This document shows positions 25,101 to 58,428 of a stretch of DNA of 64,000 bases, one piece after another (the first letter of the stretch is position 1; the number at the start of each line of letters is the position of its first letter). Under the pieces are notes generated by a model. The model ran no database searches. It saw only the letters and a list, made by a program, of their open reading frames with translations, and was not told the origin of the DNA. The position numbers and the translations under genes were made by a program. Source of the stretch: Ruminiclostridium papyrosolvens DSM 2782 (GTDB lineage Bacteria; Bacillota; Clostridia; Acetivibrionales; DSM-1351); assembly GCF_029318685.1 (NCBI RefSeq), contig NZ_CP119677.1, positions 4,579,001-4,643,000 on the forward strand, read 5' to 3'.

Positions 25101-26103
25101 CTTCAATATCCGGCGTAGTAACTCCTACAGTGTATCCATCATTATTTACTGCGGTTCCTTTTATTACAGCAATTATATTGTCCTTATCCTTTATAGCTTT
25201 ATCCAGAGACTTTAGGATTACAGCCCCACCGCCTTCTCCCGGTACGTATCCATCTGCATTTTTGTCAAAGGTTTTGCATTTACCCTCAGGGGACAATGCA
25301 TTTATCTGACTTAAATAAACGTAAGTATTAGGATCTACTATTACTTCAATTCCTCCTGCTATAGACATATCGCAGTCCCCGTTAATTATACTTTGACAGG
25401 CAAGATGTATGCTTACCAAAGAGGAAGAACATGCTGTATCAACCGCCATTGAAGGCCCCTTGAGGTCTAAATAATTTGAAACTGCTGCTGCTACCATATT
25501 TGGCGCCTTTCCAAGCAGTACTGAACGTATAAATTCAATGCTGTCCTTTCGGGACATGTCGGACATATTCTTATTGCTTACAAAGGTTTCAGTATTATAT
25601 ACATTTCCTCTGACCCCAACAAATACTCCTATGTCATCTCCCCTTCTGCTGTCACGACTGCCATAGCCTGCGTTCTCCAAAGCTTCCCAGCAAAGATGTA
25701 AAAATAATCTTTGCTGAGGGTCTGTTACCATTGAACTTATCTCGGATTGATTGAAGAAATCTGAATCAAACTTGTTTGCCCTTCCGGCAAAGCTTCCCCA
25801 CTTACTATAACTTTTCAGAGCCTTCCTATCAGCACTGTATCTTTTTTCCTTATCCCATCGATATTCAGGCACCTCTTCCAGACAATCTATACCCTGCTCA
25901 ATATTGAGCCAAAATTCCTGAAGATTTTCTGACTTTCCAAAATTACATGACATACCTATAACAGCTATATCCTTAATACTGTTTTCTGAAGCCGGTCTGT
26001 CATTCATTTCTGCCTGGTGTTCTCTTATTATTGATTCAGCAATCTTACTATCCAGCTCTTTATTAGCTACATTTTTAAATATAAATTCAAGAAATTTTTT
26101 CAT
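16156..26103 (-). CDS. type I PKS, two modules (PKS III)
   Basis: 3315 residues. N-terminal docking helices 1-35. Module 1: KS about 45-480 (Cys225), AT about 580-925 (GQGSQ, Ser676 in GHSIGEY, HPFH, malonyl-like), DH about 948-1225 (NHVVGDNVIMPG, HPGILDGALQ), KR about 1240-1720 (GGLGGIG; Tyr1646 present but Ala1633 in place of Ser), ACP (DAGLDSIT). Module 2: KS about 1875-2300 (Cys2042, DTQCSSS), AT remnant about 2305-2625, KR about 2660-3140 (GGATGIG, FSSIAAL, SDYSSAN, intact), ACP (EYGMDSLA), C-terminal docking helix (KLYEGTINTKDAKEKI). GGAGGGG precedes the ATG, which overlaps the previous stop. Expected work: an alkene-forming or keto module, depending on its KR, then a hydroxyl-forming module that needs an AT from elsewhere. 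Confidence 0.93.
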   Translation of the reverse strand: MKKFLEFIFKNVANKELDSKIAESIIREHQAEMNDRPASENSIKDIAVIGMSCNFGKSENLQEFWLNIEQGIDCLEEVPEYRWDKEKRYSADRKALKSYSKWGSFAGRANKFDSDFFNQSEISSMVTDPQQRLFLHLCWEALENAGYGSRDSRRGDDIGVFVGVRGNVYNTETFVSNKNMSDMSRKDSIEFIRSVLLGKAPNMVAAAVSNYLDLKGPSMAVDTACSSSLVSIHLACQSIINGDCDMSIAGGIEVIVDPNTYVYLSQINALSPEGKCKTFDKNADGYVPGEGGGAVILKSLDKAIKDKDNIIAVIKGTAVNNDGYTVGVTTPDIEGQKRVIKKAYRKAGVKPDSVTLIEAHGTGTFLGDPTEFRALTEVFRENTDKFNFCALGTVKSNIGHLHSAAGIASFIKIALALNKGRIPATLNCNEPNPRFNLISSPFYISDKTTNWEVDKIKRRAGISSFGFGGTNCHIVLEEHPSEYTKKEAETIENHLAVYSAKDNEALKRVICNNLEYLNSNFVQPEDYSYTLNTGRELFEKRICVSFKNVEELRGKLSALIDDKEKQFSLSENAASKSSETPKTALVFPGQGSQYYGMAKELYIRAESFREAFNKCDTAFSKYLGQSIKEIIYSSDVSKDLINQTAITQPVVFAIDYSMGRMWLDLGIKPDAVLGHSIGEYAAACIAGVFTLEEAARIVVKRAALMNSIDCNGGMMVVFADEATVRKVSGDTLPKLEAGISIAAINGPSNIVISGTNKDLEIVKSKLSTLNINTRELAVSHPFHSKLMAPILEEFRNEFNSIKMKRAQIPLVSNLTGDFKYNFDADYWQEHIIEPVRFYQSIVFLTDNNYDIFIEAGPGTTAATMLKRIEQCSQKVIIPTLNKYDSDWDSLTGAISTVIKEGLEINFNVLYSKRNKIELPTYPFSYREYWINQERSSDIKHSSEEHKNTNGLAYALFDNIKIVSENEIHLEKTVTTEDLEVIRNHVVGDNVIMPGVCFWEMAQIASLFGYGKVPVALKRITYPSALIIDKKENSRYRLILDKEKGKFTVSAYNKKSEQLWEQVALGTIEEVNTADNSLTDISGIKKRLNYRYFSGRELNEKFKEKGLFYGEKFYSVTNAWGGQNEALTELRFKADMLSENYMYHPGILDGALQGIALVQEVAEDTRTFIPYRVEQIDFYGRLPEDCFGYVSLVKYNTEKGIIEFNVSITDIYGNVKISIKKMCLKAVNMQSNEAIVTREKQIKEYYTPYWTEIEKEQIKPLTLKTLLVFEDIKGKDSPLVKFYENRGCKVIKVSKEFSYKKINEDQYNINPYNKEDYQNLFSSLHKDGIAAEGIIYAFDLNRQEVADNHFAAVEDMAGGKVLGLIALINSMRVYNLDETHIAVVTSNAFIVNSHDKGYNYPQAAVAGLIRTIPHEYGNIKGVLIDIEENSLENERTLKLIADYLMNQYKKEIVSIRNGRLFAQTFKKENFCINQDMNLPLQDQGVYVIAGGLGGIGLEIAKAIAAKVKARLILIGRSPFPERSKWQSHETEENKALLKKIKSIQDIEAKGSQVITLAVDVCNEKQLTSALESIRTKFDHINGVINAAGILEDALINRVTKEVYEKVTKAKILGSCLLDYATNKDNLDFFVIFSAMVTYFGNAGQAAYSCANAFEDSFAAYRNFVKGKKTIVINWGVWEEVGLVADSVSKKSLEERGIIPLSTSEAIEGFYSCLTEKHFQFGIGKLSKDLENKLISRLITTKLSRSISNSLSGHFTMDIEKLLKEYLLKKINELRENSSKPMNYKTSFLDAGLDSITIVNFTENFENETGIKLYPTVLFEYPTIQELSKYLLKNNNSVLDKILNENLILGDEKTDYAEIENTETEVVSEKEQNLILSTDIAVIGMSGSFPGASNVNEYWQNLMNGINCVKEVPSERWDWREYYHPDKQKGKTYCKWGGFIDEIDLFDPLFFNLSPKEATVLDPQQRFLLKATWETLEDAGYADGKLFGTRTGVFVGVSNHNYFDEAFDEDNNYSGLATANAIAANRLSYFFDLKGPSMSIDTQCSSSLVALHEACKSIIIGESDYAIAGGVNFLIPKDYYILLSQMEAVSKDGSCKTFDKKANGFISGEGVGVLLLKRLSDAITDRDNIHCVIKATEVNHDGKSGSLTAPNSKSQSELIKRCIGKAKVNPETITYIETHGTGTSLGDPIEIKGLTEAFTEYTDKRSYCALGAVKSNIGHLESAAGMAGIIKVIMAMKNKTIPGNLHFEEKNAFIDFANSPFYVLDKPIKWQTYGNPMRAGISSFGMGGTNGHVILEQAPEYKKYDSSDENNVSYPVVLSAKSYSALKKSIIKLTEYLEDKPHLQIKDISYTLNTGRYNFNYRVAIVAASVAELTYSLQQISSNNFEYWQSHKIFYGSTNGNDAISHLTASEDEIVKAVVVIPTHDRSIFNNIVKFTNKYFQKNRVFMEVLDEYEKAVNKIGMSIKKCLQPEVVCLDNEAKIFTFAFTVSMIKFLETLGIKTVQVIAPDNSEIIMAASEKRRSPEECIRKVLENNEEGTLNASQVIDSNYIINLGRRDYLDILGIPDEQAGIFNILEDESFDTDSVNTLISKIYVKGGKINFNAIYSDSERKTSLPTYSFQPKSYWNRKKLKDVSREEIVAVTEAKHDVQKAQDYFYKWFWQEVKENTPLTFENSFVWVVFCDKQELYANIRESLKTRNQKVILVFADDKYYKKDSCNYTINSYLEEDYKVLFKDIIKDFGRVDTVINLWAYTNTEFQETTYASVYGLLGIALGLNANLKGNTEVNLISITNHSLEVEDIDKGKISVGGYPVHMLSRLISAEIKNIAARSIDFNGLEASKEVVEDVIFKYSLTKNGFSELAYRHGKAYIRMLKKNTLQKPEILNSVWKDGGVYVITGGATGIGAEIGLHIAKKVKAAVILIGRTKLPEKSEFREYLERGDQKAVIEKIENIIKIQEAGAKVEYYNGDISDELKTIEILDNISKRFGHITGILHCAGAKRDGIITAKSFKDFQYAIAAKVSGISNIKKAIEGKSVDFVVAFSSIAALYGTPGQSDYSSANALMDAFINDWSGNTETFVTSINWTLWDGAGMDIPLLAKRKMENDGLLPLEISDGITALERLLQDRKASNYIVMKLSESDKFIKDLFESKMRNPMSDKNGLFLSGTQSSKNMSVHKTTNTFEKETKEFLLKMLSELLYLEATDIDTSRGLDEYGMDSLAIKEALAALEKQYDTVLEPSLFEENPTIDKLVVYLADRLSKNIQYQTEEAFNNSGESEISEDIATDSDEDKIEHLLCKLYEGTINTKDAKEKIARLLSVSED
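18230..19190 (-). other. vestigial acyltransferase region, module III-2
   Basis: It retains the KS-to-AT linker and the closing LPTYSFQPKSYW, plus LETLGIKTVQVIAPDNSEI where the AT nucleophile elbow should stand. GHSxG is replaced by APDNS out of register, and no xxFH motif follows. An eroded AT. Confidence 0.68.
26100..26103 (-). other. ATGA stop/start overlap, PKS II to PKS III
   Basis: The TGA of PKS II and the ATG of PKS III share bases, with GGAGGGG just upstream. This implies coupled translation and near-equal amounts of two proteins that must dock. Confidence 0.85.
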
Positions 26104-29100
26104 GATTCCCCTCCAAAAATTTTAAGAGCTTCATCTACAGCTATTTCCCCTTTATATATGTTGTCCAGTAAACGGACTAAATCTGTCTCATTATTTTCAG
26201 TCTGCTGAGACAGCTTAACTTCGTCACTTAAAGTTTCACGCTCATGCTTGTTTTCACCGGAAATTTCAGTCCCGACTTCAATAACCCTGTACTCTTCCAT
26301 AAGGAAGTCGGCTAATGCATTAATAGTCGGATACTCCAGTATAATAGAAGGATGCAGGAATATTTTGTATTTACGTTCTATTACAGCAACTATATCTGCA
26401 ACTATAACGGAATCAATGCCATACTCTGAAAAATTCGTGTATTCGCTTATTTGTGAGACTTCTATTTGTAAAAATTCAACAAGCAGTCCCTTTAAATATT
26501 CCTTCAAGCTTTCTCTTGAAGCAGCTTTGTCAACATCAGAGGTTTTCATATCAGCAGCTTTTTCAAATGTCAATGTTTCCTCCTCTTTGAACAAACCATT
26601 TAAAGAAAAATCACTTTTATCGGTATTAAGCACAATTAAGTTTCCACAATTTTTAGACTTAATTACTGCATCAAATATCTTTAGTCCCATGTCACTACTT
26701 ATTGAAAAATCTTCCCCGCCATAAGCCTTTTTTGCTCCAAGTCCTACGCCTTCCCATAAAGGCCAGCTCACTGAAACTACCTTTTTCCCCGAATTTTGCG
26801 CTAGGGCTTTTGCGTATTCGTTCATATAGAAATTTGCAGCTGCATAATCGCATAGAGTAGCGCCTAACTTTCCATTAAGTCCGGAAATTGATGAGCATAA
26901 TATCATGAAGTCAGGCAGAATATTCATAAAAGCTCTTCCGATATTCATTGTCCCCTGAAATTTAGGACTTATTGTTTTTGCAAAAGACTCATAGGTTTTA
27001 GTTCTTAAAGTTCTATTCACACTGTCAACAAGTCCGGCGCAATGTACTATACCTGTTATCCTTCCGTATTTACTTGTAATTTCTTTAACAACTGAATCCA
27101 GTGACTCCGGATTTGAAACGTCCGATTTCCTGTACTCAATTGCAGTATTGTTTTTAATATCTCTATTTATGTTATTCAGCTTTTCTAACTCGGATATAGC
27201 CTTACTATCAGTTAACTCCTTTATATCCCTTCTGCCCGTGAGGTATACTGCCTCTGCATTATTTCTGATAAAATACTCTGCAAATATGGCCCCTAACCCG
27301 CTCAAACCACCGGTTATAAGGTAAACTCCTCCATCTGTACTGCAACCGGTTTCGTTTATATTCCCTTCAAACTCACGGGTTATTCTTATAAAGCGCTCAT
27401 TATTTCTATAGGATATTTCTTTAAATTTACTTCTGAAAGTTGATAATTCATAAATCAACTTATTTGCAAAGTCTTCATTGCTTATGTTTCTATTAAAATC
27501 TATTGCTAAGGAGGATATATTTTTCACTTCGTATGGGATATTTCTATCTAAACCAACTAATAAAGCACTTTCGGGAACTACGGACTTATCTGCTGGTACA
27601 GCCAATCCATTAAAGGTTGCCGATATAAGCTTTAAGCTATGAATTATTTTGGCAGCAAGGATTGCTTTAGCAAGATACATATGTACAAAAACTCCTGAGT
27701 CGGTATTTAATTCGCTCCCCAATAATTCATTTCGCTCATGAAGAGGTATGTGAATAACTCCTCTAAACTTCTCACCTGATTTTAAGTAAATATCCTGCAT
27801 CAACTTTTCATAATCTTCTGAATTAGAGTAATTTATGGTATAGCCATAAGCCTCGGCATTATAGAATAGTCCTTTTTTTACTCTGACTACAGTACTTCCT
27901 TTATGCCTTAAATATTCTTCTAAAATATTAAGCTTAATATCATCTTCACCTATTAGTGCATAGGTACCTTTAAAAATGTTCTTATCCTCTGGTTCCTTAT
28001 TTTCTGATGTTTTAACCCACTGCTGTTCAAATAAGTACCTTTGGCATTGGGGAGGGGCAAAAGTCTTTTGCTTGACTTCCTTAACGCATCTTAATTCTCC
28101 GGAGGTAATAGTATAAAAACACATAGAGCAGGAAGTACAAGCTCCCTCCTTATTTGCTTTTAAATCTTTAATAAAATCCGAACTATTTATAAACGGTCTT
28201 CCTATGCCAACAAAGTCAGCAAATGAGTTAGTAAGCAAATCTTCTATCTGCTCCAGCCTGCGTATTCCTCCGGTGATTATTATAGGGATACCAGCTGTCT
28301 CTTTAATTGTAGCCAGAATCTTTTTATACTCAGGCAAATAGCAGGATTTTAATACCTCTTCTCTGCTTAAAATCCCCCCACTAAGTTCAACAATATCAAA
28401 TCGGTTATCCTCTAAAGTCTTTATAATATTAACCAGCTCTTCTATATCTATTCCATTCTTACCACTTGGCATATCAATTTTGATACCTATTATAAAATCA
28501 TCTCCAAGTGTCTTTCTGATTCCGTCAGCAATACTTATGATTAAAGCAGTTCGGTTCTTGGTGCATCCGCCCCAATTATCACTGCGTGTATTTAATAACG
28601 GAGATAAGAAGTTGGACAATAAGTAACCGTGGGCAGCATGAAGCTGTATACCGTCAGCTCCGCCATTTTTAGCAGCAACAGCGGCTTCAATAAATCTGCC
28701 TGCTAATTCATTTATCTCTTCTTCAGATAGCTTATCTATTGACTTTACTCCCCCATGGTTAAGTTGCACCAGTAACAGAGAACCGTCTGACTTCAAAAGC
28801 TCCGAAAGCCTTTTAAGCTGGTATGTTTGATTGTTTACACTGTTCAATACAACTTCATTTCCATTCTTTCTTCCTTTTAAGTCAACAATACAGTTTCCTA
28901 TGATTTTTATTCCTGAGCCGATAGAACTCCAGCTTTTATATTTATTAATATAGTTTTCAGTAATTAACCCGTCCTTATCAGCCATACCAATTTCAATAGC
29001 AGACTTAACAATTCTATTGGATGCTGTTAATCCTTTTAACGTATATGGTCTTTCAAAACTTTTTACTTCTGCCTTTGGTTCAGTATTAATTGCCCAATAG

Positions 29101-32100
29101 GATTTGTTATCAAAAACATATGTAGGCAAATCCATAGTTTTCCCATTGAACAGACAAGAGAATTTTTCAAAATCCACATCAACACCCAGAGTATATATCC
29201 TTCCAATTAATGATATAATGGAATACCACTCTGTAGCACCAGTCTGAAAAAATGGTAATATATTGATTGATGTACCGTCAAAGCTTACATTTTCTAGTAT
29301 ACTGTCAGTGTAAAAATCATCCGGCCCAAGTTCAATTGTTACTACTTTAGTATCCTGTTCTTCCCCCGACTGATATAAATCCTTGATAGCATCAAATTCC
29401 ACAATCTGAGTTTCAGTAAACTTCATATACTGTATTTCTACAGCTTCGTTTATGTCTATTCCATGTTTATACGCTATTTCACTAATTGCTTCTTTTAAAC
29501 TAATCCGACCCGAAAGTACTCTTGCAGGTAAACCAGTTTTTTCTGCGGAAACTACCACGGCAGCATTAACATTAAAGTCCATCAGTATTTTAGCCATTGA
29601 TACTTGTAGTGCTAACGCTATAACTTCCTGTAGTGCTTTATTTATAGTGCTTGTAGAATTGATTTCGTCCAATCCCAATAAGGCTTTTATATATTCAACA
29701 GTTTCCTTGAACATAACATTTTTACTTATAGTCTCAATGTTATTAACCTCAAAAGTTCTGTCAGATATTAGGTATACAACTTTTGCCTTCTTATATCTTG
29801 AAGTTTCAGCTGTTACTAAGGAGTAATTTATAGCAGCTGAACTTTGTTGCCTCACTGTAAAATCATTTTTTAATACTTCCTTCATAAGCTTATATAGTTT
29901 TTCTGTACTGTTAGCTACTATAGAGAGCCTATTTGAAAAATGATTTCTGTTCACACTCATAGTGTGGCAAATATCCTCCAAGCTTAAATGAATATTATTC
30001 CCAATGTAATTACATATTTTCTCCATTGTAAGCTTCAAAGAATGTTGTGACTTGGCAGATATAGTAAATAAGTTAAATGGAACTTCCGGATGTCCCGGAA
30101 TTCTTTCCATACTTAATTTTGGTGCCTCTTCTATAATCGTGTGACAATTGGTTCCTCCCATACCAAAGGAACTTATTCCCGCCCTCATTAGCTCATTGCT
30201 TTTCCATGCAATAGGCCTATCTGCTATATAGAAAGGAGTTTCATTGAAATTAATGTAGCTGTTAGGTTGATTAAAGTTAATGGTTGGCGGAATAATCCTG
30301 TTCTTTATTGCAAGAACAGCTTTTATAATACCTGCAATACCTGCTGTTGACTCTAAGTGCCCTATATTTGTTTTCAAAGAACCAATTGCACAAAATGATT
30401 TTTTGTCGGTAAATTTTTCAAAGCTCTTAGTAAGTGCAGATACTTCAACAGGGTCTCCTAAACTTGTTCCTGTACCATGGGCTTCAATAAATGACAAGGT
30501 TTCCGGATTTATATCAGCTTTCATCATACCTTCTGTTATGGCCATATATTGAGAATTAGCATTAGGAGCACTTGTATTGCTGGATTTACCGTCATGAGTC
30601 ACCGCTACACTCTTTATAACCGCATGTATATTATCATTATCTTTTAAAGCTTTAGATAAAGGCTTTAACAGTAATGCAGTGCTGCCTTCCCCTGATATAA
30701 AACCGTTTGCTGTCTTATCAAAGGTTTTACATTTACCGTCTGGAGAAATTGCCTTAACCTGACTGAGAAGCACGTAATATTCCTTAGGTATAATCACATT
30801 AACTCCCCCGGCAATTGCCATTTCACACTCACCCGACAATATGCTTTGGCACGCGTAGTTTAGTGCCACCATAGAAGATGAGCACTGAGTATCAATAGTA
30901 AGACTCGGCCCTGTAAAATTCATAAAATAAGATAATCTGTTAGCAACCATAGCATTTGAGGTACTCAAGGTGCAGAATGAATCATTTCTGTCATAGGAAA
31001 TGTTGTGGTAGTTATGGTTTGATACACCGGCAAAGACACCTACCCTCAAGTCTGATAATCTTTTTGCCGTATATCCGCCATTTTCAATAGCACTCCAGGC
31101 AGTCTCTAAAAACAGTCTCTGCTGTGGGTCCATTCTTTTGGCTTCTCTCACGGAAATATTGAAAAACTGCGGGTCAAACTTATCAAAATTGTCTACTAAG
31201 CCAGCCCATTTGCAATAGGTTTTGTCTTTACCGGGAATACTGCTGTACACCTCTGAATCATTCCAGCGTTCAATACTAATATCCTTTATACTTGAAACGC
31301 CCTTTATCAGATTATCCCACAACTTATATACATCATCTGCCCCCGGGAAGATACCCGCCATACCCACTATTGCGATATCCTTCTCAGAGTAATACGGCAT
31401 CACGGCTTCCGGAGTTTCCTGTCTATATTCCTCTGTTATTACTGCTGCTTCTGATAGCTCTATTACTTCCTCTGCCTCTATTTCAGCGTCGTCCATTGGT
31501 GCTGTTTTCTTATTTGAGTTTATAAATTTAGCAATACTGTTAAAATGTTTTTCACATAGATAGGCAGCCAAAGCATCAATAGTCTGGTATTCAAAAAACA
31601 CTGTCGGGTAAAGACTTATTTCTATTTCTTTCTCTATTATCCCTGACAAAGCAACTAGAGATAAAGAATCCAGACCTAATTCCAAAAACCCTACGTCTGA
31701 GTCAACCGATGACTTTTCAATGCCGGATACTTCTAAGATTTTCAGGATTATAGTTTCTTTTGTAAATTCCAATACACTGTCATAGCTTATGCCTTCCTTT
31801 TGTGGAAGTGATTTAGTTTTCTGTGCTATTGGTATTGTTTTAACTCTTTCCGTCGGCTTTACCATTTGGTTAGCTTGGCTTGTACTACTAATAGAGTCAA
31901 CTTTCTCTTTTATACCCTCTGCTATTATGATGGAATATGGATATCTCACACTTTTTCTATCCTTTAAAGGCAGGGTGCTTATTCTGCTGAAACCTAATTT
32001 ATTTAAGCATGTCCTCCATTCGTATGGAGTTAATAATGTAGAATTTTTTCTTAAATCAGCATCTTCAAATTTCCACCAACCCTCTGTCAATCCAAACACC

Positions 32101-35100
32101 AAATCAGCAAAGCCTGTTATCATAGTAGTCTCCAGCATAACTACAACAGCGTTGCTCTTCATAACCTTCATTACATTATTAAAGGTATTAGACAAGCTTG
32201 CAGTAGCATGCAATACATTTGCGGCAATTATGATATCAAAGGACTCCTTTTGAAGCCTTTGCATATAAGGCTCCTTTTCAATATCCAGCTGTGTATAATT
32301 AACAAAGGTATACTCCTTAAAGGATTCTGAGGCATGCTTTAGTAACACGGGTGAAATATCTGTAAATGTATACTCTACATCCAAGCCGTTTATTTCTTTA
32401 AGAATTTTTGCTGTACTTCCCCCTGTTCCACCGCCTATCTCAAGAATTTTTACTTTTTTCCCCGGCGCGTGAGAGGATACTATGCTTTTAACTACTTTCC
32501 CTATATAATGATTTTGAGGTGATGGTAAGTGATAAAGCTTTTCCATTATATTAATGTTTCCGCCCGGAAAAAGAACGCTCATTGCATTCAACTGTCCTGA
32601 TATCACTTCCCCATATTTTGAATAGCAATTATCTAAAATAATTGCATAAATATCCTCATTTTTATAGTTTTCCTTAAATTGCTGACTTAATATATTAATG
32701 CTGTTATAGCAGATATTTCCCTTACGCTTAAACTTCTTACTGCCTTTAGCTTGTATAAAGTCCATTTTTAACAATATATCAAGCATGGCATCAACAAGCC
32801 TGTCAAACTTAGGAAGGATTTTACAGGTTGTACGAATATTATCTGCTGTATGATAAACATCTTGTTCTACAAAAATTCCATTGGCTTTAAAATAGTCCAT
32901 AACAAAAACCGCACAAAGTATGTCTAAATCTCTTCCAAAATTGAATTCATAGCTTTGATTAACTTCCTTTATTAATCTGTCTAATTCAATATCATGCTTT
33001 AATATATTGCCTACGCAGGATGCTTCGTCGGACAAACTGTACCCTGAGTCAACTCTTTTTCCTTCTCTATATAAAAGTTCAGCTTGCTTTTCAGCCGACA
33101 TATGTCCTATACCCACCTGAGGCATGTCTGTAGAAATAACCTTATCAAAGGCATCTAAAGCTTCTTTAACTTCCATTGGAGCGAAGCCCTTCTCTTTTAA
33201 AGACTGAATATACATAGGTTTAGCCACAATTCCTATAGTTCCCCATATACCCCAATTGATTGTTAAAGTCCTTTTTCTTTTTACAAAATTTCTATAATAA
33301 GTAAAACTATCTTCAAAAAAGTTAGCGGAGGTATGATTACTCTGACCCATTATTCCTACATAGGAAACAAACCCTGAGAAAAGTATCATAAAATCTACCG
33401 GATCATTCTCAGTCAACTTATCAGCAAATACAGTACCCAGCATTTTTGGGTTTAAGACACTATAAAACTTCTCACTGTCCATATTTAATATAAGTGCATC
33501 CTGTAGTACTCCTGCTGCATGTATTATCCCATTTATTGAACCAAACTTATGTCTTACTTCGTCAAAGACAGCTTTCAAAGAATCATAATCTGTTATATCA
33601 GCTTTATAAAAAGCTAAGCGGGACCCCTTTGCCAATACTTCTTTAAATGCTGAAATATTGTCTTTAATTCTGCTGTTCATAAGGTCTTGAGAGTTTTGTA
33701 GCTTCCCCCATTGATTTACGTCGGGGAATTCACTTCTGGATATGACTATAAAATTTGCCTGCTCTTTGTCAGCCAAGTGTTTTATAATTTCAACTCCCAG
33801 TCCGCCCTGTCCACCCAGAACTATATAGGTTCCGCCCTTTCTGACAGTTATCTCATTAATAGCGTCTTGTTTAAGCTCTTTCACTTTTTCTATAACCATT
33901 ACAAATCTTTTGGCATTCCTATACGCTATAAATGCGTCCTTATCAATAGCAGAAAGTTCTGTCAGAATACTTCTTGAAATAGGCTGTACTTTGAAATCCT
34001 GACAGTCAAAATCAATATTAACTGCCTGTACTTGTTCAAACTCTAAAGGAATAGTTTTTATTACCCCTAAAACCTCTGATTTTTCGGGAAACAATACATC
34101 TTTCCCCTTTAGTGCCGGCTGACAGTTATTTGTTACTGTTATAAGCTTAAATTTACTATTGATTTTATTTTCCTTTATAGCACGTAGTAAATAAATGATA
34201 TCTAATGCGTGAGAGTGCTTGTTCAGATTGATATCACCTATAGCTTGTTCTACTCGGTTATAGTCATCTAAGGACCACAAGTATAATACATTATGTAACT
34301 GAAGGCTTTTTTGTTGTAATTTGTTCAGAACTAATACCAAGTCGCTATATTCGCCTTGAGTTACATTAAAGCTATGACCGTCATTATTTAAATTTCTATT
34401 GCTTCTATATACTTTATAAACATCATATCCGGAACTTTTTATTTCTGCTGCTATGTTATTATGCTGTTGGTTATCTTCGTCCATAAAGATTAAAACATTT
34501 TTATGTATTCCTGTAGTTTCTATACGAAGCAGCGGTTTTTCTATCCATGTGGGTTTAAACAATAGGTTATGGCAGGAAACATTCTTTTCTATCTTTTTAA
34601 AATGAATTCCATTAAATTTCATAATGACTTGTCCATTATTATCAGTCAAAATAACATCTGCTTTAAGAATTTCCGACCTATTGGAATCGCTAAAAATTTT
34701 TACTTTACTTTTATAATTTGTATCAAGCATTTTACCAAAAACAGATATTTTACTTATACAGAACGGCACATATTTGTCTTTAATATTGTTTTTAAAAAGT
34801 ATAGCTGAAACCACCTGCAATGCAGAATCCACTACACCCGGGTGAAACACTTTGCTGCAATCAGTACTATCCTCAATGGTTAGCTTTATTTCTCCTGATG
34901 CAGTGGTGCTTCCGGACACAATTTTGTTTATTCCTCTGTATAACGGGCCATAATGCAGCCCCACCGAGTCCATATATTCATAAATTTTATCAGCCTCTGA
35001 AGTTACTTGATTCTCATCAGCATAATTTTCATAATCATCCTTACTCTTTATAGGCTCATCCTCAAAGGAATATTGTCCCCCGGAGCATTCAATAAAGTTT

Positions 35101-38100
35101 GTTAGGGTTTCGTCCCATCTGTCTATTCTGAAATAATTACTGTTATCCTTAAAAATTCTAACTCTAATGAGCAGATTTTTATCTTTTGCTGCAATAATAG
35201 GTTCTGAAAATCTTATATCTTCAATTGCTTTGATTTCCCTATTCCATAGCTTTTGTACACCCATAGCTGCCAGCTTAATTTGGTATACACCTGAAACCAC
35301 GCAATTTCCGCCAACAACGTGGTCTCCTAAAACTGCATCTCTGTCAGCATTCAGAATTTTATAAAATGAAACATATTGTTCTGTTTTAGATAAAATTCCA
35401 TCGAAAAACTCAATATTTGTTTCATCTGACACACAACTTATCGGAAGGTCTTTGTTACTGTTTATTACCTCTTCTCTTGTAAAGCTGTATAATGGCAATG
35501 CTATTCTTTTAGCTCCAACACTTTGGAAAAACTGTGTTAAATCAAACTCCGCTCCTGATATATTGAGTTTCCCCATTGAGTCAAAAAGCTGGAGCCAGTC
35601 ACTTTTTCCTCTGGTCAGAGTTGCAGCCACAGTTATGTCATTATAACCTTCTGCAACTTTACTTGTAAGCTGAGAAAGAGTTGTTCCCGGTCCTAACTCA
35701 ATAAAATACTTATAGCCTTCTGATAACAGTTTTTTAATGCTTTTATTGAATTGTACAGTACCCATTATATGGGAGAGCCAATACTCTTCAGTTAAAGCCT
35801 CTCCATCAATGAAGTCTCCCGTAACATTACTCACTATTTTAAACTGAGCTTTATTAGGCTTAATATACCGTAAAGCTTCCCTGTACTTATCAAGCATAGA
35901 TTCCATTTGCGGAGAGTGAAAAGCATGAGATACCTGAAGTAAAACAGACTTTACTGATTTTTCTTTAAATCTTCTGCAAACTTTATCTACAACAAGCTTA
36001 TCTCCTGATATAACGGTATTGGTTTCGCCATTAACTGCTGCAATTGATACAACAGCCCTCTCTTGATAGCTAAGTTCTGATAATAACTGATTAACTTCAT
36101 TTTCATATGTAAACACTGCTGCCATTGCCCCGTTTTCAGGGAGCTCACTCATAAGCTTTCCCCTTGTGACAACTAGCTTTAGCGCAGCTTCCAAGTCCAT
36201 AACCCCTGCTGCACAAGCTGCCACATATTCTCCTAAACTATGACCGATAACTACTGACGGTGTTAACCCCAAATGTCTCCATAGAATATATAGGGAATAG
36301 TCCAATGCAAAGGTTACAGGCTGAGTTATATATGTGCTGCTTAAAAGCTTTGTGTTTTCCGGATTAAATAACAGTTCATTTATTGACTTGCCTAAATATG
36401 GCATTAATATGTCGCTGCATTTATCCAAGGTCTTCTTAAACAAACTGTTTGTATCATATATTTCCTTAGCTGCACCCGTGTAGAGACTGCCTTGCCCTGT
36501 GAACATAAGTACAAGCTTGTTACCTGCTTTTTTAGATTTATCTCCAACGAATATTGATTTTTTTTCATCAGTTATTCCTTTTTCTGCATCCTCCAGCTTA
36601 GCTATAAGTTCCTGAATATTACTTGCATTTATAAATAACTTATTTGAAAAAGCCTGCCTTCCTGCGTTAGCAACAAAAGCTACATCCTTATATCTCAACT
36701 GTTTATTCTTTTTCAAAAAGTTTATATACTTTTTTATTAATCCATCTAAGGCTTCTCTGTTCAAAGCAGACAAAACAAAAGGCAGATACCTCTGTTGCTC
36801 CTGTTCCCCAACCTGAAAATCATTATGTTCTTCAATAATTATGTGGCAGTTAGTACCTCCAAAACCAAAGGAACTGATGGCAGCTCTTCTTTTATCACCG
36901 TAATTGTCCCATGTAACTGCTTTAGTTATAGGGAAAAACGGTGAATCAACGAAATTAAATCTTGGATTAGGAATATCGCAGTTTAATGTTGGTACTAAGG
37001 TTTTATTCTTAATGCAGAGTAATATTTTTATAAAGCCTGCTATTCCGGCAGCACTATGCAAATGACCAATATTAGTCTTTACTGAGCCGATGGCACAAAA
37101 GCCCCTCCTACCTGTACTCTCCCTATAAGTTTCGGTTAATGCCTTAACTTCTATAGGGTCTCCGATGGCAGTTCCTGTTCCATGAGCCTCAATATAAGTT
37201 ATATTTTCAGGAGATACCTTGGCATTTTTTAAGGCTTTCTTTATTAAATTTTTCTGTCCGTTAAGGTCAGGCGTTGTTATTCCCATGGTATGCCCATCGT
37301 TATTTACAGATGAGCCTGCAATAACGCCATATATTGTATCGCCGTCTGCAACAGCCTTGCTGTATTCTTTTAAAATTACTATCCCTGCTCCTTCACCGGG
37401 AACGTAACCGTTAGCTCTTTTATCAAAAGTGTAGCACTTTCCGTCTGGAGAAATTGCTTTGGCTTTTGAAAGTCCTACATAGGAATCACTATTTACTAAT
37501 AAATCAATTCCTCCTGCCAGTGCCATTGTACAGTCTCCTGCCAGGATACTCCGGCAGGCAGTATGAATACTTACCAGAGAAGATGAGCATGCAGTATCCA
37601 TGACCATAGAAGGTCCTCTGAGGTTTAGAAAGTCAGAAAGCCTTGCTGCTATCATATTAGGAGCTTTTCCAATTATGTAATTTCTGTTTGAGCCTTCCAT
37701 TAAATCTGTGTTATTTTTATCCAACATCCCTAATGTACAGTTATTTGCTCTGGCTCCTATGAATATACCCGTATCGGAATTTTCTCTTCTGATATTACCA
37801 TATCCTGCATGTTCCAATGCTTCCCATACAACTTCCATTATAATAAGCTGCTGAGGGTCTATTGTTAGTAACTCCTCTTTGTCCATCCCTAAAAAAACTG
37901 TATCATAATGTGATAATGAGCCTAAAAAGCCTCCCCATTTTGAGTAGCTTGTCTCGCTGTTGTTGTCTGAATTCTTATCATAAAATCCATCCAGTTCCCA
38001 TCTTTCCTTTGGTATCTCAGTAATACAATCTCTTCCATGTAAAATATTATTCCAAAACTCATCAGCATTGTCAGCCTGAGGGAATCTGCATGAATACCCA

Positions 38101-38246
38101 ATCACTGCTATTTTATTTTTTTCATTACCTTCAGATTCTACATTGTATTCTGATTTTTTCTCATCAATCATGTATTCAGCATCTATGTAATGCACTTCTC
38201 TTTTTTGTACTTTTTCTAACAATTTTACCAATTCATGCTTGTTCAT
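26100..38246 (-). CDS. type I PKS, two modules with cMT and an embedded OYE reductase (PKS II)
   Basis: 4048 residues. N-terminal docking helices 1-35. Module 1: KS about 42-474 (Cys220), AT about 576-930 (Ser670 in GHSLGEY, HAFH as in malonyl-specific ATs), DH about 946-1219 (DHVVGGNCVVSG, HPGVVDSALQ), KR about 1230-1720 with Gly1625 and His1638 at the catalytic Ser and Tyr positions, cMT about 1755-2110, ACP (LGLDSLSL). Module 2: KS about 2289-2708 (Cys2455), AT remnant about 2709-3060, OYE flavin reductase about 3065-3408, KR about 3415-3890 (GGLSGLG, CDYAAAN), ACP (EYGIDSVI), C-terminal docking helix (IYKGEIAVDEALKIF). Module 2 has no DH. The start has GAGG at 7 bases. The TGA stop overlaps the ATG of PKS III as ATGA, so the two are translationally coupled. 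Confidence 0.93.
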   Translation of the reverse strand: MNKHELVKLLEKVQKREVHYIDAEYMIDEKKSEYNVESEGNEKNKIAVIGYSCRFPQADNADEFWNNILHGRDCITEIPKERWELDGFYDKNSDNNSETSYSKWGGFLGSLSHYDTVFLGMDKEELLTIDPQQLIIMEVVWEALEHAGYGNIRRENSDTGIFIGARANNCTLGMLDKNNTDLMEGSNRNYIIGKAPNMIAARLSDFLNLRGPSMVMDTACSSSLVSIHTACRSILAGDCTMALAGGIDLLVNSDSYVGLSKAKAISPDGKCYTFDKRANGYVPGEGAGIVILKEYSKAVADGDTIYGVIAGSSVNNDGHTMGITTPDLNGQKNLIKKALKNAKVSPENITYIEAHGTGTAIGDPIEVKALTETYRESTGRRGFCAIGSVKTNIGHLHSAAGIAGFIKILLCIKNKTLVPTLNCDIPNPRFNFVDSPFFPITKAVTWDNYGDKRRAAISSFGFGGTNCHIIIEEHNDFQVGEQEQQRYLPFVLSALNREALDGLIKKYINFLKKNKQLRYKDVAFVANAGRQAFSNKLFINASNIQELIAKLEDAEKGITDEKKSIFVGDKSKKAGNKLVLMFTGQGSLYTGAAKEIYDTNSLFKKTLDKCSDILMPYLGKSINELLFNPENTKLLSSTYITQPVTFALDYSLYILWRHLGLTPSVVIGHSLGEYVAACAAGVMDLEAALKLVVTRGKLMSELPENGAMAAVFTYENEVNQLLSELSYQERAVVSIAAVNGETNTVISGDKLVVDKVCRRFKEKSVKSVLLQVSHAFHSPQMESMLDKYREALRYIKPNKAQFKIVSNVTGDFIDGEALTEEYWLSHIMGTVQFNKSIKKLLSEGYKYFIELGPGTTLSQLTSKVAEGYNDITVAATLTRGKSDWLQLFDSMGKLNISGAEFDLTQFFQSVGAKRIALPLYSFTREEVINSNKDLPISCVSDETNIEFFDGILSKTEQYVSFYKILNADRDAVLGDHVVGGNCVVSGVYQIKLAAMGVQKLWNREIKAIEDIRFSEPIIAAKDKNLLIRVRIFKDNSNYFRIDRWDETLTNFIECSGGQYSFEDEPIKSKDDYENYADENQVTSEADKIYEYMDSVGLHYGPLYRGINKIVSGSTTASGEIKLTIEDSTDCSKVFHPGVVDSALQVVSAILFKNNIKDKYVPFCISKISVFGKMLDTNYKSKVKIFSDSNRSEILKADVILTDNNGQVIMKFNGIHFKKIEKNVSCHNLLFKPTWIEKPLLRIETTGIHKNVLIFMDEDNQQHNNIAAEIKSSGYDVYKVYRSNRNLNNDGHSFNVTQGEYSDLVLVLNKLQQKSLQLHNVLYLWSLDDYNRVEQAIGDINLNKHSHALDIIYLLRAIKENKINSKFKLITVTNNCQPALKGKDVLFPEKSEVLGVIKTIPLEFEQVQAVNIDFDCQDFKVQPISRSILTELSAIDKDAFIAYRNAKRFVMVIEKVKELKQDAINEITVRKGGTYIVLGGQGGLGVEIIKHLADKEQANFIVISRSEFPDVNQWGKLQNSQDLMNSRIKDNISAFKEVLAKGSRLAFYKADITDYDSLKAVFDEVRHKFGSINGIIHAAGVLQDALILNMDSEKFYSVLNPKMLGTVFADKLTENDPVDFMILFSGFVSYVGIMGQSNHTSANFFEDSFTYYRNFVKRKRTLTINWGIWGTIGIVAKPMYIQSLKEKGFAPMEVKEALDAFDKVISTDMPQVGIGHMSAEKQAELLYREGKRVDSGYSLSDEASCVGNILKHDIELDRLIKEVNQSYEFNFGRDLDILCAVFVMDYFKANGIFVEQDVYHTADNIRTTCKILPKFDRLVDAMLDILLKMDFIQAKGSKKFKRKGNICYNSINILSQQFKENYKNEDIYAIILDNCYSKYGEVISGQLNAMSVLFPGGNINIMEKLYHLPSPQNHYIGKVVKSIVSSHAPGKKVKILEIGGGTGGSTAKILKEINGLDVEYTFTDISPVLLKHASESFKEYTFVNYTQLDIEKEPYMQRLQKESFDIIIAANVLHATASLSNTFNNVMKVMKSNAVVVMLETTMITGFADLVFGLTEGWWKFEDADLRKNSTLLTPYEWRTCLNKLGFSRISTLPLKDRKSVRYPYSIIIAEGIKEKVDSISSTSQANQMVKPTERVKTIPIAQKTKSLPQKEGISYDSVLEFTKETIILKILEVSGIEKSSVDSDVGFLELGLDSLSLVALSGIIEKEIEISLYPTVFFEYQTIDALAAYLCEKHFNSIAKFINSNKKTAPMDDAEIEAEEVIELSEAAVITEEYRQETPEAVMPYYSEKDIAIVGMAGIFPGADDVYKLWDNLIKGVSSIKDISIERWNDSEVYSSIPGKDKTYCKWAGLVDNFDKFDPQFFNISVREAKRMDPQQRLFLETAWSAIENGGYTAKRLSDLRVGVFAGVSNHNYHNISYDRNDSFCTLSTSNAMVANRLSYFMNFTGPSLTIDTQCSSSMVALNYACQSILSGECEMAIAGGVNVIIPKEYYVLLSQVKAISPDGKCKTFDKTANGFISGEGSTALLLKPLSKALKDNDNIHAVIKSVAVTHDGKSSNTSAPNANSQYMAITEGMMKADINPETLSFIEAHGTGTSLGDPVEVSALTKSFEKFTDKKSFCAIGSLKTNIGHLESTAGIAGIIKAVLAIKNRIIPPTINFNQPNSYINFNETPFYIADRPIAWKSNELMRAGISSFGMGGTNCHTIIEEAPKLSMERIPGHPEVPFNLFTISAKSQHSLKLTMEKICNYIGNNIHLSLEDICHTMSVNRNHFSNRLSIVANSTEKLYKLMKEVLKNDFTVRQQSSAAINYSLVTAETSRYKKAKVVYLISDRTFEVNNIETISKNVMFKETVEYIKALLGLDEINSTSTINKALQEVIALALQVSMAKILMDFNVNAAVVVSAEKTGLPARVLSGRISLKEAISEIAYKHGIDINEAVEIQYMKFTETQIVEFDAIKDLYQSGEEQDTKVVTIELGPDDFYTDSILENVSFDGTSINILPFFQTGATEWYSIISLIGRIYTLGVDVDFEKFSCLFNGKTMDLPTYVFDNKSYWAINTEPKAEVKSFERPYTLKGLTASNRIVKSAIEIGMADKDGLITENYINKYKSWSSIGSGIKIIGNCIVDLKGRKNGNEVVLNSVNNQTYQLKRLSELLKSDGSLLLVQLNHGGVKSIDKLSEEEINELAGRFIEAAVAAKNGGADGIQLHAAHGYLLSNFLSPLLNTRSDNWGGCTKNRTALIISIADGIRKTLGDDFIIGIKIDMPSGKNGIDIEELVNIIKTLEDNRFDIVELSGGILSREEVLKSCYLPEYKKILATIKETAGIPIIITGGIRRLEQIEDLLTNSFADFVGIGRPFINSSDFIKDLKANKEGACTSCSMCFYTITSGELRCVKEVKQKTFAPPQCQRYLFEQQWVKTSENKEPEDKNIFKGTYALIGEDDIKLNILEEYLRHKGSTVVRVKKGLFYNAEAYGYTINYSNSEDYEKLMQDIYLKSGEKFRGVIHIPLHERNELLGSELNTDSGVFVHMYLAKAILAAKIIHSLKLISATFNGLAVPADKSVVPESALLVGLDRNIPYEVKNISSLAIDFNRNISNEDFANKLIYELSTFRSKFKEISYRNNERFIRITREFEGNINETGCSTDGGVYLITGGLSGLGAIFAEYFIRNNAEAVYLTGRRDIKELTDSKAISELEKLNNINRDIKNNTAIEYRKSDVSNPESLDSVVKEITSKYGRITGIVHCAGLVDSVNRTLRTKTYESFAKTISPKFQGTMNIGRAFMNILPDFMILCSSISGLNGKLGATLCDYAAANFYMNEYAKALAQNSGKKVVSVSWPLWEGVGLGAKKAYGGEDFSISSDMGLKIFDAVIKSKNCGNLIVLNTDKSDFSLNGLFKEEETLTFEKAADMKTSDVDKAASRESLKEYLKGLLVEFLQIEVSQISEYTNFSEYGIDSVIVADIVAVIERKYKIFLHPSIILEYPTINALADFLMEEYRVIEVGTEISGENKHERETLSDEVKLSQQTENNETDLVRLLDNIYKGEIAVDEALKIFGGES
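28022..29053 (-). other. Old Yellow Enzyme-type flavin reductase domain inside a PKS module
   Basis: Residues about 3065-3408 of PKS II form a complete NADH:flavin oxidoreductase barrel. Visible marks are VQLNHGG, the His pair at 3203 and 3206 in LHAAHGYLLSNFLSP, NTRSDNWGG, PIIITGGIR and DFVGIGRPF (phosphate end). Cysteines 3370, 3373, 3376 and 3387 (CX2CX2CX10C) resemble the [4Fe-4S] motif of 2,4-dienoyl-CoA reductase-type members. The frame is continuous with the AT remnant before and the KR after, so this is one polypeptide. OYE-family enzymes reduce activated C=C bonds with FMN, so a role as built-in enoyl or dienoyl reductase is likely. Confidence 0.9.
29070..30120 (-). other. vestigial acyltransferase region, module II-2
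   Basis: This segment runs from the KS end to LPTYVFDNKSYWAI. AT-like strands remain (VSMAKILMDFNVNAAVVVSA) but the GHSxG nucleophile elbow has become VSAEKT. It lies just before the inserted flavin reductase domain. Confidence 0.68.
31915..32980 (-). other. C-methyltransferase domain, module II-1
   Basis: A SAM-dependent methyltransferase of the PKS cMT class, with the motif I sequence ILEIGGGTGGST (near 32412-32455), TFTDISPV and the downstream ANVLHAT and EGWWKF motifs. It lies between KR and ACP. It would put a methyl on the alpha carbon while the beta-keto group is present, which agrees with the dead KR next to it. Confidence 0.88.
33000..34560 (-). other. inactive KR domain, module II-1
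   Basis: The cofactor loop GGQGGLG is kept, but the catalytic positions read FSGFVS and QSNHTSAN. The Tyr is His (codon 33333-33335) and the Ser 13 residues before it is Gly (codon 33372-33374). Ketoreduction by this domain is not expected. Confidence 0.8.
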
Positions 38247-49024: not shown

Positions 49025-50178
49025 ATTCCTCCTCCCGTAATTGGTATATTAGTACCGTTTATAAATGAACCGCCTTCCCCACTAAGAAATAATATGGTTT
49101 TTGCCACTTCTGATACTTCAGCTAAACGGTTCATTGGATTTTTCTGCAATTCAGCATATTTAACACTATTCGATATATCTGTAGTCATATCCGTAATCAT
49201 CATTGAAGGAGATACCATATTAGCAGTAATCCCATATCTGCCCATATCGGCTGCTAAAGATTTTGTCAAACCCCAAAGAGCTTCTTTTCCAACTATATAG
49301 GGATACATGGACAAAGGTGGAGTTCCTAAAATATATGACGTACCAATATTTATTATCCTTCCATACTTTGCAGCCTTCATTCCAGCTGCGCAGACATCCA
49401 GAATTTCGATTAAACTCTTTATATAAACATTAATATATTCGTCCAGTACTCCATTAATGCTGCTTCCTAAACTTATCTTATTGGGAACGGGACTGGCAGC
49501 ATGGATTACTATATTGATAGGCATGAATTCCTTATTTACATTTATAATTAACTCTCTTAACTGCGATAGATTATTTAAATCACATAATACATTTCGTATT
49601 TTTCCGAGATAGTCTTTTTGGAGGTTATTTATTTCCACAGACTCTTTTCTGGACAAAACTACTACATTATAACCTTCTTTTAGCAGTTCTTTTGTTACTT
49701 CAAGTCCCACTCCTCCAGAACCTCCGGTGACTAAAGCACATCTTTTAGATATTTCTAACATAGGCAGACTCCTGTTTATTTTATTCAGGCACATAACCTT
49801 TGCCGTTCCTGATAATACTTTTTTAGTACCTTTCATTACTAATATCTGAAGTTTAGCAACTCCTACAGCTTCACTTCTTTGTATTATTTCAATTTCTATA
49901 TCAACGGTCTCATTCCAAAATACCGGAGACATAAAACTAATGTTCAAATCTGACCACAAAGCACCGTAACCGGGTAATTCAGTGCCTATAATTCTGCTAA
50001 TCTCTGATAATAGAATCGCACCGTGGCATACAGGGTTTTGAAACCCATAACTATATGCACCGTCTTCCGAGACATGTATCGGATTATCATCTCCGGAGAA
50101 ATTTCTGAAATCCATAACCATATCTTTTGTCATAGTAAAACTGGTTTTATACTTTTCCCCAACCTCAGGTAAATTCAT
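49021..50178 (-). CDS. MaoC-type hydratase/dehydratase fused to an SDR ketoreductase
   Basis: About 385 residues. Residues 5-135 are a MaoC/hot-dog domain (FSGDDNPIH and FQNPVCHGAILLSE, with the Asp and His of R-hydratases). Residues 148-385 are a FabG-like SDR: GGSGGVG cofactor loop, catalytic Ser in INIGTSY, YIVGK with Tyr and Lys, and a C-terminal ITGGG. The fusion could reduce a beta-keto group and then dehydrate it, or run the reverse way, on a carrier-bound chain. The ATG at 50178 follows GGTGAT; the in-frame GTG 12 bases upstream has no site of its own. Its TGA overlaps the ATG of the FkbH gene (ATGA). It could supply reduction and dehydration in trans to modules with a dead KR (inference). 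Confidence 0.85.
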   Translation of the reverse strand: MNLPEVGEKYKTSFTMTKDMVMDFRNFSGDDNPIHVSEDGAYSYGFQNPVCHGAILLSEISRIIGTELPGYGALWSDLNISFMSPVFWNETVDIEIEIIQRSEAVGVAKLQILVMKGTKKVLSGTAKVMCLNKINRSLPMLEISKRCALVTGGSGGVGLEVTKELLKEGYNVVVLSRKESVEINNLQKDYLGKIRNVLCDLNNLSQLRELIINVNKEFMPINIVIHAASPVPNKISLGSSINGVLDEYINVYIKSLIEILDVCAAGMKAAKYGRIINIGTSYILGTPPLSMYPYIVGKEALWGLTKSLAADMGRYGITANMVSPSMMITDMTTDISNSVKYAELQKNPMNRLAEVSEVAKTILFLSGEGGSFINGTNIPITGGGI

Positions 50179-50217
50179 AGCTATCACCACTATCTGATTA
50201 ATATAGTTATTTTTGAT

Positions 50218-51017: not shown

Positions 51018-52622
51018 TTATAACTCTGACCATATACGGCTTGGTGTAATTTGAAAATTATCAAGATTTATCTTACTGCACTGAGTTTTTAAATAATTCA
51101 ATCTTTTAAGATACATAGCGCCGTAAATCAGGTTTTTTGCTACATTAGTAACCTTTCTATTTGCAGGTTCCTCCAGATAAGTACCCTTTACCCATCTGTT
51201 AAAAGCTCCCATAGCCGGCCCGCAAAAGATTTGAAAGTCAGCTTTCTTGTCCATTTCGCCTCTTTGTGCCCACTTTGATGAAAGACCCAGATAACTTCTA
51301 AAAATCAATGCCATTTTCAACTTAGGATTTTTATCTGCCCTCTTAAGTATTTCAGGGTCCGTGTTTAAGAAAAATTGTCTGGTATTATTCCATACATTTT
51401 CTAAAGTATCATTAAATACCTTAGTCTCCAGATAAGTTTTTGTCTTATGGTCTATTTCTTCTATACTGGCGCAATTTTTAAATGTTTCATACAGTTTGTT
51501 GGCCTTTAAGTGGAACATTACTCCTTTGGTCATTACCTGAACTCTGCTTCCCATTTCAAACATATCTGCCGAAGGTGCATTGGCAACATCACTCATTGAA
51601 ATCTGTGATAATATTCCCTTAACTTCATCGCAAGTTCCTGCTTCAACACAACTCTGATTTATAGAACCGGTCATAACGAAATCAGCCCCTAATGTAAAAG
51701 CTGCCAATATGGTATATGGTGAGCATATTCCTCCTGCTGCGCCTATTCTTATTCTTCCATGCTTGTACTTATACTTGTCCATCATTTGAACTCTAAGTAT
51801 AGCCATGTTTTGAAACAATACCAAAGCAGGACGGTTATCTGTATGCCCTCCTGAGTCGGCTTCTGCAATTATATCTTCAGCCACCGGTATCTCTTGAGCC
51901 AGTTCTGCTTCTTGGCTGGTAATTCGCCCCTTCTCCAGTAGCAGTTTTATAATCTTTTCCGGTGGAGGTGACATAAATTGTGCTGCAACCTCTTCCCTTG
52001 ATACTTTTGCAAAAATCTTATTTTCAGTTATTACTCTTCCATTCTCCCTGTAAGCACCTCTAAGCCTGTATTCAACTATTGCAGGTGTAAGTGTTACCGC
52101 TCCTGCTACCTCAACTCTTTTAACATCATGCTTCAGCAGTAAATTTATCATTTCTTCATCCTTTAAAGGATTAGCTGAAATCATATTTACCCCAAACACT
52201 CCGTTGCTTCCTATTCTGCCTTTTATTTCAATTATGGCTTTTTCCACTTCTGAGACAACCATGCCCCCGGTTCCAAAAAAGCCCATAAACCCATCTGCTG
52301 CTGCGGCGACAACCATATCTACAGATGCTATTCCTTGAGCCATTCCACCTAAAACATAGGGATATTTTACATTGTGCTCCTCCATAAATTCTTGGGAACC
52401 AATGCTTATGTTTTTGTAATCATAGTCGTAGGCCACCAGTTTGTAATATCCTTCAGCCTCACTTAAGGATATTCTTCCTTCACTGGTAACAAAAAGCCTT
52501 CCGTGCTTTTCATAAATAAAAATACTTTTTGTAAAATCTCTTATCAGCTCTTGGCCGGATTCTAATTCTATTTCTGAATGTTCCGGATAAATCCATAAAG
52601 AAAATTGATTATTTAAACTCAT
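51018..52622 (-). CDS. PfaD-like trans-acting enoyl reductase (FMN-dependent)
   Basis: 534 residues. The family marks are the PYVLGGMAQGIAS start of the FMN barrel, GFFGTGGM, and AEADSGGHTDNRP near residue 260. PfaD-type proteins reduce enoyl-ACP in trans for polyunsaturated fatty acid synthases and trans-AT PKSs, where they are often fused to or next to a discrete acyltransferase. Here no AT domain is attached and none lies beside it. Expected partners are PKS modules that make a double bond but have no ER, such as I-1, II-1, III-1 or IV-1 (inference). Confidence 0.9.
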   Translation of the reverse strand: MSLNNQFSLWIYPEHSEIELESGQELIRDFTKSIFIYEKHGRLFVTSEGRISLSEAEGYYKLVAYDYDYKNISIGSQEFMEEHNVKYPYVLGGMAQGIASVDMVVAAAADGFMGFFGTGGMVVSEVEKAIIEIKGRIGSNGVFGVNMISANPLKDEEMINLLLKHDVKRVEVAGAVTLTPAIVEYRLRGAYRENGRVITENKIFAKVSREEVAAQFMSPPPEKIIKLLLEKGRITSQEAELAQEIPVAEDIIAEADSGGHTDNRPALVLFQNMAILRVQMMDKYKYKHGRIRIGAAGGICSPYTILAAFTLGADFVMTGSINQSCVEAGTCDEVKGILSQISMSDVANAPSADMFEMGSRVQVMTKGVMFHLKANKLYETFKNCASIEEIDHKTKTYLETKVFNDTLENVWNNTRQFFLNTDPEILKRADKNPKLKMALIFRSYLGLSSKWAQRGEMDKKADFQIFCGPAMGAFNRWVKGTYLEEPANRKVTNVAKNLIYGAMYLKRLNYLKTQCSKINLDNFQITPSRIWSEL

Positions 52623-54003: not shown

Positions 54004-54024
54004 TTTACTCCTCCTATTTTCTGC

Positions 54025-55380: not shown

Positions 55381-55395
55381 TCCTACCATCTCCTT

Positions 55396-57906: not shown

Positions 57907-57960
57907 GATTTTATTCTCCAATTTCTAATTTATTAAGATTCTACTTATGAAGCTGATAAA

Positions 57961-58386: not shown

Positions 58387-58391
58387 AGTAA

Positions 58392-58397
58392 CCCTCC
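58392..58397 (-). promoter_or_regulatory. ribosome binding site deciding the extended-ACP start
   Basis: GGAGGG, 5 bases before the ATG at 58386. It argues against the longer frame beginning with GTG at 58422. Confidence 0.7.
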
Positions 58398-58428
58398 AAA
58401 ATATATTTTTAATTTGTTTCACAAATTG

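Follow-up and report, generated by a model that had tools for sequence, protein, structure and literature searches.

Organization of the module

What an Old Yellow Enzyme (OYE) domain could do inside a polyketide synthase (PKS) module, and on which substrate, is the question raised by the gene P0001 of Ruminiclostridium papyrosolvens DSM 2782. The gene lies within the stretch of 64,000 nucleotides analyzed here (the window), starts with ATG and encodes 4048 aa without an internal stop. The excised OYE domain (P0001 aa 3040-3420) is referred to as P0005, and the gene has the following parts, given in window coordinates:

26100..38246, minus strand: P0001, PKS gene, module II-1 (KS-AT-DH-KR-MT-ACP) and module II-2 (KS-degenerate AT-OYE-psiKR-KR-ACP)
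31383..38246, minus strand: module II-1, presumed chain supplier, with KS, cis AT, DH, KR (His for Tyr), methyltransferase and ACP
29865..31382, minus strand: KS and KS-AT linker of module II-2, with active-site Cys (DTQCSSSM) and HGTGT
29130..29864, minus strand: degenerate AT remnant of module II-2, without GHSxG and without a PF00698 match
29094..29129, minus strand: post-AT linker motif LPTYVFDNKSYW
about 28050..29051, minus strand: inserted OYE domain, P0001 aa about 3066-3399
28620..28643, minus strand: catalytic motif LHAAHGYL (P0005 H164, H167, Y169)
28086..28139, minus strand: four-Cys motif CX2CX2CX10C (Cys3370/3373/3376/3387)
26751..28034, minus strand: psiKR and KR of module II-2, the KR (PF08659) with its catalytic Tyr kept
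26301..26501, minus strand: ACP of module II-2 (PF00550)

In module II-2, Pfam recognized the KS (PF00109, PF02801), the OYE domain (PF00724), the KR (PF08659) and the ACP (PF00550), and the residues of an elongating module were all present, namely DTQCSSSM and HGTGT in the KS and the Ser motif YGIDSV in the ACP. Judged by its active-site Cys and HGTGT, the KS is probably elongating. The DH model gave zero matches in module II-2, the sole PS-DH stretch found by Pfam in P0001 being that of module II-1, in agreement with the sequence-only reading that had preceded this analysis; an alkene handled in module II-2 must therefore come from elsewhere.

Modules with a cis AT and modules without an AT alternate across PKS II to V (the modules of PKS IV being assigned by motifs and its tail by Pfam), and no AT match was obtained in PKS I. 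The mixed cis/trans-AT PKS clusters of cellulolytic clostridia likewise combine modules with and without an AT in an anaerobic clostridial genome (PMC3250452, in part); the main text of that source has no occurrence of 'yellow', 'flavin', 'enoyl' or 'FMN'. In a quick tree the KS of II-2 clustered with those of III-2 and IV-2 (SH-aLRT 81, unstarred), and the modules upstream of III-2 and IV-2 carry DH and KR-Tyr motifs, the DH of III-1 being recognized also by Pfam and that of IV-1 by motif only. Elsewhere in the cluster, the first KS of the PKS at L029:3527-11692 (minus strand) reads NGTGT for HGTGT, a change by which it is probably non-elongating.

When II-2 was aligned with the sister modules I-2, III-2, IV-2 and V-2, a single extra block was observed, flanked by the post-AT motif (LPTYVFDNKSYW) on one side and by the psiKR on the other. 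The sister modules have no OYE, and a short linker joins their post-AT motif to the psiKR. The OYE domain is a clean in-frame insertion, in one piece, and takes the position usual for a DH or ER. GC content is 0.370 in the OYE block and 0.360 in the gene, with GC3 values of 0.320 and 0.305, respectively. Since the source genome is a single contig of 5.03 Mb and the GC and GC3 of the block are ordinary, an assembly chimera is unlikely. A pseudogene or frame error was rejected on the grounds of the 4048-aa open frame, which shows no compositional break, and a recent copy of a host OYE on the grounds of the best match of P0005 among the four stand-alone PF00724 genes (37% over 188 aa).

Fold and active site of the OYE domain

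PF00724 matched P0001 with an E value of 1.7e-38 (133 bits, cut-off 27) and P0005 with 3e-41 (142 bits), each time in two stretches, and the best PDB sequence matches of P0005 were OYEs (7fev, 3krz, 3kru and YqjM). From an input alignment of 55 rows, AlphaFold2 produced a complete (beta/alpha)8 barrel (pLDDT 86.8, pTM 0.86), with weak spots at the termini (pLDDT under 50) and in a loop near residues 251-260 (average 61). The top Foldseek match was OYE6 (7fev). Among the best 50 entries of VIA-align, 2-naphthoyl-CoA reductase came first (Z 42.7, 344 aligned), 1ps9 and 6qkg were near the top (342 and 344 residues aligned, reaching model residues 368-369), and YqjM followed with Z 39.3 over 301 residues. 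The model and the Pfam match bear out the sequence-only reading of a complete OYE barrel set between an AT remnant and a KR in one open frame, and the motifs LHAAHGYL, NTRSDNWGG and GIGRPF, as well as the four Cys, lie where that reading had put them. The two ER families usual in such assembly lines were looked for as well: the MDR-type models PF08240 and PF00107 were absent from P0001 aa 2843-3784, and the PfaD/FabK-type barrel PF03060 gave zero matches in P0005 at E 1.

P0005 retains N38-R39, Q122, H164, H167, Y169, N180, R182, G187, S250, G287, G288 and R311, to which we assign the roles of their counterparts in OYE and YqjM (substrate-binding His pair, proton-donor Tyr, flavin phosphate site). 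The flavin-site residues checked in the alignment, whose loss would have counted against the sequence-only reading, are in place. A retained Tyr proton donor speaks for reduction and not for isomerisation. At near-invariant columns (at least 85% one letter among 54 relatives) P0005 matches 32 of 38, compared with 88 of 287 at other columns; the six losses spare the His pair that binds the substrate, the Tyr and those residues of the phosphate site that were checked, and the retention of 84% ranks ninth from the bottom among the 55 rows. The position of YqjM Cys26 is variable among the relatives and is occupied by Glu in P0005, as in four of the 54. The segment from Q122 to H164 spans 43 aa, the shortest of 55 (median 66), the other barrel segments being within range. 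In OYEs this stretch presumably contributes to the lid that covers the active site, and if so, its shortness would suit a tethered substrate.

Four-Cys motif and kinship within the OYEs

The four Cys had been read as a cluster-type motif, and they do align with the Cys of cluster-type OYEs, including the FadH-type relatives L019 and L020. The order CX2CX2C...C is found in many relatives, long FadH-type and short alike, and CX2CX2C occurs also in the long FadH-type proteins L003, L004 and L020; the motif described for the Fe-S flavoenzyme family is CX2CX3CX11-13C (PMC11574389, in part), compared with CX2CX2CX10C in P0005. A metal cluster on these Cys is putative. Since the substrates described for Fe-S OYEs include enones, bilirubin and isoflavones (PMC11574389, in part), the motif gives no pointer to a dienoyl substrate.

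Trees were calculated from 107 rows by quick search and from 45 rows, hand-picked from a larger set, by careful search. In the careful tree P0005 sits with short stand-alone OYEs (branch 100/99), beside a group without the Cys motif, and its end branch of 1.78 is the sole one flagged as long. Constraining P0005 to the FadH-type side was 19.7 log units worse (p-AU 0.046), a borderline value obtained with a long branch and with groups named post hoc; constraining it to the short Cys clade was 5.8 log units worse and was not rejected (p-AU 0.057).

With the short stand-alone OYEs (YqjM, OYE6/7fev, Methanosarcina and proteobacterial homologues) P0005 shares the barrel, HxxHxY, the flavin-site residues, the side of the tree and up to about 35% identity. 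These proteins are roughly 330-450 aa long, whereas P0005 is built into a 4048-aa PKS and has the shortened Q122-H164 segment. FadH/2,4-dienoyl-CoA reductase, BaiCD, BaiH, BilR and 2-naphthoyl-CoA reductase have, as P0005 does, four Cys in a motif behind the OYE barrel, but P0005 differs from these Fe-S flavoenzymes in its Cys spacing, in falling outside the FadH-type clade (borderline) and in lacking the FAD/NAD(P)-binding half (PF07992, Pyr_redox_2; zero matches in P0001 aa 2843-3784). The genome has 22 Pyr_redox_2 matches and 39 Fer4_7 matches, all of them outside the PKS cluster, so that there is no obvious partner there for a relay through a metal cluster. Electrons could come directly from NAD(P)H or, via a metal cluster, from the general ferredoxin of the cell, a partner elsewhere in the genome being allowed for. 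The kinship with 2,4-dienoyl-CoA reductases proposed earlier is weakened: the Cys alignment and the fold matches speak for it, and the missing half, the side of the tree (borderline p-AU 0.046) and, less clearly, the Cys spacing speak against it. On these comparisons a captured dienoyl-CoA reductase is an improbable origin for P0005.

Distribution

P0005 was searched against five overlapping genome sets, each with the source genome in it: 60 relatives at 1e-20, a class set of 391 at 1e-30, a genus set of 11 at 1e-25, a phylum set of 398 at 1e-35 and an order set of 58 at 1e-30. In the class and phylum searches up to four candidates were scored per genome. Among the matches listed, across all five sets, an OYE in a PKS-size frame was found in the source genome only (4051 aa). 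The longest non-PKS frame among the matches listed measured 946 aa, occurred in two same-genus genomes and was FadH-type in the tree. A single-sequence scan of a genome collection, with patterns drawn from variable stretches, confirmed none. In an alignment scan of the same collection, from which 80 loci were taken as a sample, the frames around the matches measured at most 795 aa within the limits of the contigs. On plasmids, 11 records matched at 1e-25 (five annotated as NADH:flavin oxidoreductase, six without an annotated feature under the match), and none of the best 15 of 2088 records at 1e-5 was marked as a PKS.

Apart from the source genome, none of the 391 class genomes matched the KR-ACP part of II-2 at 1e-70 (390 genomes, up to three candidates scored in each), and hence this set offered no sister cluster without the OYE for comparison. 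No description of an OYE domain in a PKS was found in the open-access literature, covered mostly as titles and abstract starts; in PMC8902786 the term sought appears solely in the reference list. The sequence-only reading did not know this as a described module type, and the searches agree, with the source genome as the only carrier among the matches listed in the sets covered.

Reductases and other genes of the cluster

ERs of two other families are encoded in the same cluster:

51018..52622, minus strand: PfaD-type protein, with PF03060 and a FabD helical insert, presumed to act as a trans ER
2..about 643 (start approximate), minus strand: MDR-type ER domain (PF08240, PF00107), closing the visible part of PKS IV at its C terminus

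PfaD-type and MDR-type ERs are families acting on alpha,beta-enoyl thioesters. The MDR-type ER of PKSs is NADPH-dependent, has no flavin and has a fold unrelated to OYE; like the proposed OYE station, it works in cis in a module. PfaD/FabK-type trans ERs such as GbnE also perform FMN-dependent C=C reduction on the assembly line, but they belong to a FabK-related family, carry their catalytic His in GGHT/I and act in trans (PMC10921412, in part). The presence of three unrelated ER families in one cluster suggests that the OYE is meant for a separate substrate, one that the other two do not handle, because PfaD-type and MDR-type ERs are already at hand.

Several further genes were observed around the PKS. 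Two tandem B12-binding radical SAM proteins (PF02310 and PF04055; window 52657-55389, minus strand) are possible methylases of unactivated carbons. The protein at window 47345-49024 (minus strand) matched no Pfam model under the thresholds applied and looks FkbH-like by eye, its DLDNILWGG motif being the feature that we take as FkbH-like. Just beyond the last PKS gene lie two 2-hydroxyglutaryl-CoA dehydratase D-type proteins (PF06050; L029:1030-3511 and L030:266-1039, both minus strand), and a BcrAD/BadFG-type activator (PF01869) is encoded at the opposite end of the cluster. It may be speculated that the PF06050 proteins and the FkbH-like protein provide an acryloyl-type starter, which looks unusual for a PKS cluster. 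A block at window 56248-63782 (minus strand) encodes a 3-hydroxyacyl-CoA dehydrogenase (PF02737), another protein that resembles it by eye but has no Pfam match, a 153-aa protein that is ACP-like by eye, also without a Pfam match, and three aminotransferases (one class I/II, two class III), suggesting an amino-bearing starter unit. Phage tail and baseplate-like genes (ORFs, by eye) are located near the end of the PKS cluster (L030:5363-17900, minus strand).

Proposed role of the OYE domain and alternatives

The reading that we favor, and to which we give a little less than an even chance, is that P0005 is a working FMN-dependent ene-reductase responsible for a delayed enone reduction within module II-2. 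We infer that the domain binds FMN and saturates a C=C bond on the ACP-bound chain with a hydride from NAD(P)H or with electrons passed through a metal cluster on the four Cys. The alkene would originate in module II-1, module II-2 having no DH, and after condensation in II-2 it would be in the gamma,delta position relative to the thioester and conjugated, as an alpha,beta alkene, to the ketone just formed, giving an enone. Enones are the classical substrates of OYEs, which as a rule reduce them. The OYE would thus have the beta-keto-gamma,delta-enoyl thioester as its substrate and would saturate the enone, with protonation via Tyr3208 (P0005 Y169), while the ketone is still in place; reduction of the ketone by the KR would follow. 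The net effect would be an enoylreduction delayed by one module, alongside the PfaD-type and MDR-type ERs of the cluster. The enone timing is deduced from the chemistry and the module order. An enone is also reduced by BaiCD, a clostridial Fe-S OYE of bile acid metabolism (PMC11574389, in part).

This proposal depends on an alkene from module II-1. The KR of II-1 reads GQSNHTSAN (P0001 about aa 1634-1642), with His at the position of the catalytic Tyr that is present in the other 10 of 11 aligned KRs, and the DH of II-1 retains its His motif (by eye) and DxxxQ. If this KR is dead and has no substitute in trans, no alkene would reach II-2, and in that event a desaturase or an idle domain would be more likely. 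A single protein in which a MaoC-like hydratase is joined to a short-chain dehydrogenase is encoded at window 49021-50190 (minus strand); it is a possible trans-acting ketoreductase/dehydratase and may substitute for the KR of II-1.

The alternative that survives best, though we regard it as unlikely, is an active ene-reductase working before condensation on the alpha,beta-enoyl thioester of the II-1 ACP, that is, an ordinary ER housed one module later. The general preference of OYEs for enones over esters or thioesters counts against it, as do the position of the OYE between the linker and the KR of II-2 and the presence in the cluster of ERs for such substrates. II-1 and II-2 do share one polypeptide, and trans-acting GbnE serves an ER-less module with the ACP as key determinant; this is a trans and not a cis case, and in the same study a cis ER domain failed on the ACP of another module (PMC10921412, in part).

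A folded but non-catalytic domain, whether a relic or an element serving structure or docking, would be consistent with the very long branch, the six altered near-invariant columns of 38, the relic state of the adjoining AT and the impaired look of the II-1 KR. We consider it distinctly unlikely in view of the open frame, the barrel modelled with high confidence, the retention of the checked catalytic and phosphate-site residues, and conserved columns kept far better than the rest. A FadH-like Fe-S reductase of the 2,4-dienoyl type, reducing or shifting a conjugated diene on the chain, could account for the four Cys aligning with L019 and L020 and for 1ps9 and 6qkg among the top fold matches, but it is improbable: the FAD/NAD(P) half is absent from both domain and cluster, the tree points to the other side (p-AU 0.046), and there is no sign of a diene arriving at II-2. 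Least probable, with only a slim chance, is an oxidative desaturase putting a gamma,delta double bond beside the II-2 beta-ketone in an O2-free anaerobe, for which the oxidation of a 3-oxo steroid CoA ester by BaiCD (PMC11574389, PMC7371122, both in part) and independence from an II-1 alkene, with the II-1 KR possibly dead, would speak, against the absence from the cluster of electron carriers with Pyr_redox_2 or Fer4_7, the easier alkene source offered by the II-1 DH and the distance of BaiCD (128 bits, cut-off 825).

Implications

Taken more broadly, the delayed enone reduction in II-2 would add to PKSs a third type of enoylreductase working in cis, one based on flavin: an OYE recruited whole that reduces an enone a condensation later than usual. 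A metal cluster might be part of it, bringing oxygen sensitivity and electrons from the low-potential pool of the anaerobe. This wider claim is tentative and we regard it as rather doubtful. PKS product prediction relies on domain order. If the proposal is true, the chain is edited a step later than by an ordinary ER, on an enone and not on an enoyl thioester, which would break such prediction and might explain saturated positions without a visible ER. It would also mean that the OYEs, a compact and well-understood biocatalyst family, act on carrier-bound chains, which would be useful for engineering, and it would suggest that anaerobes widen PKS chemistry with flavin, and perhaps Fe-S, enzymes of their own.
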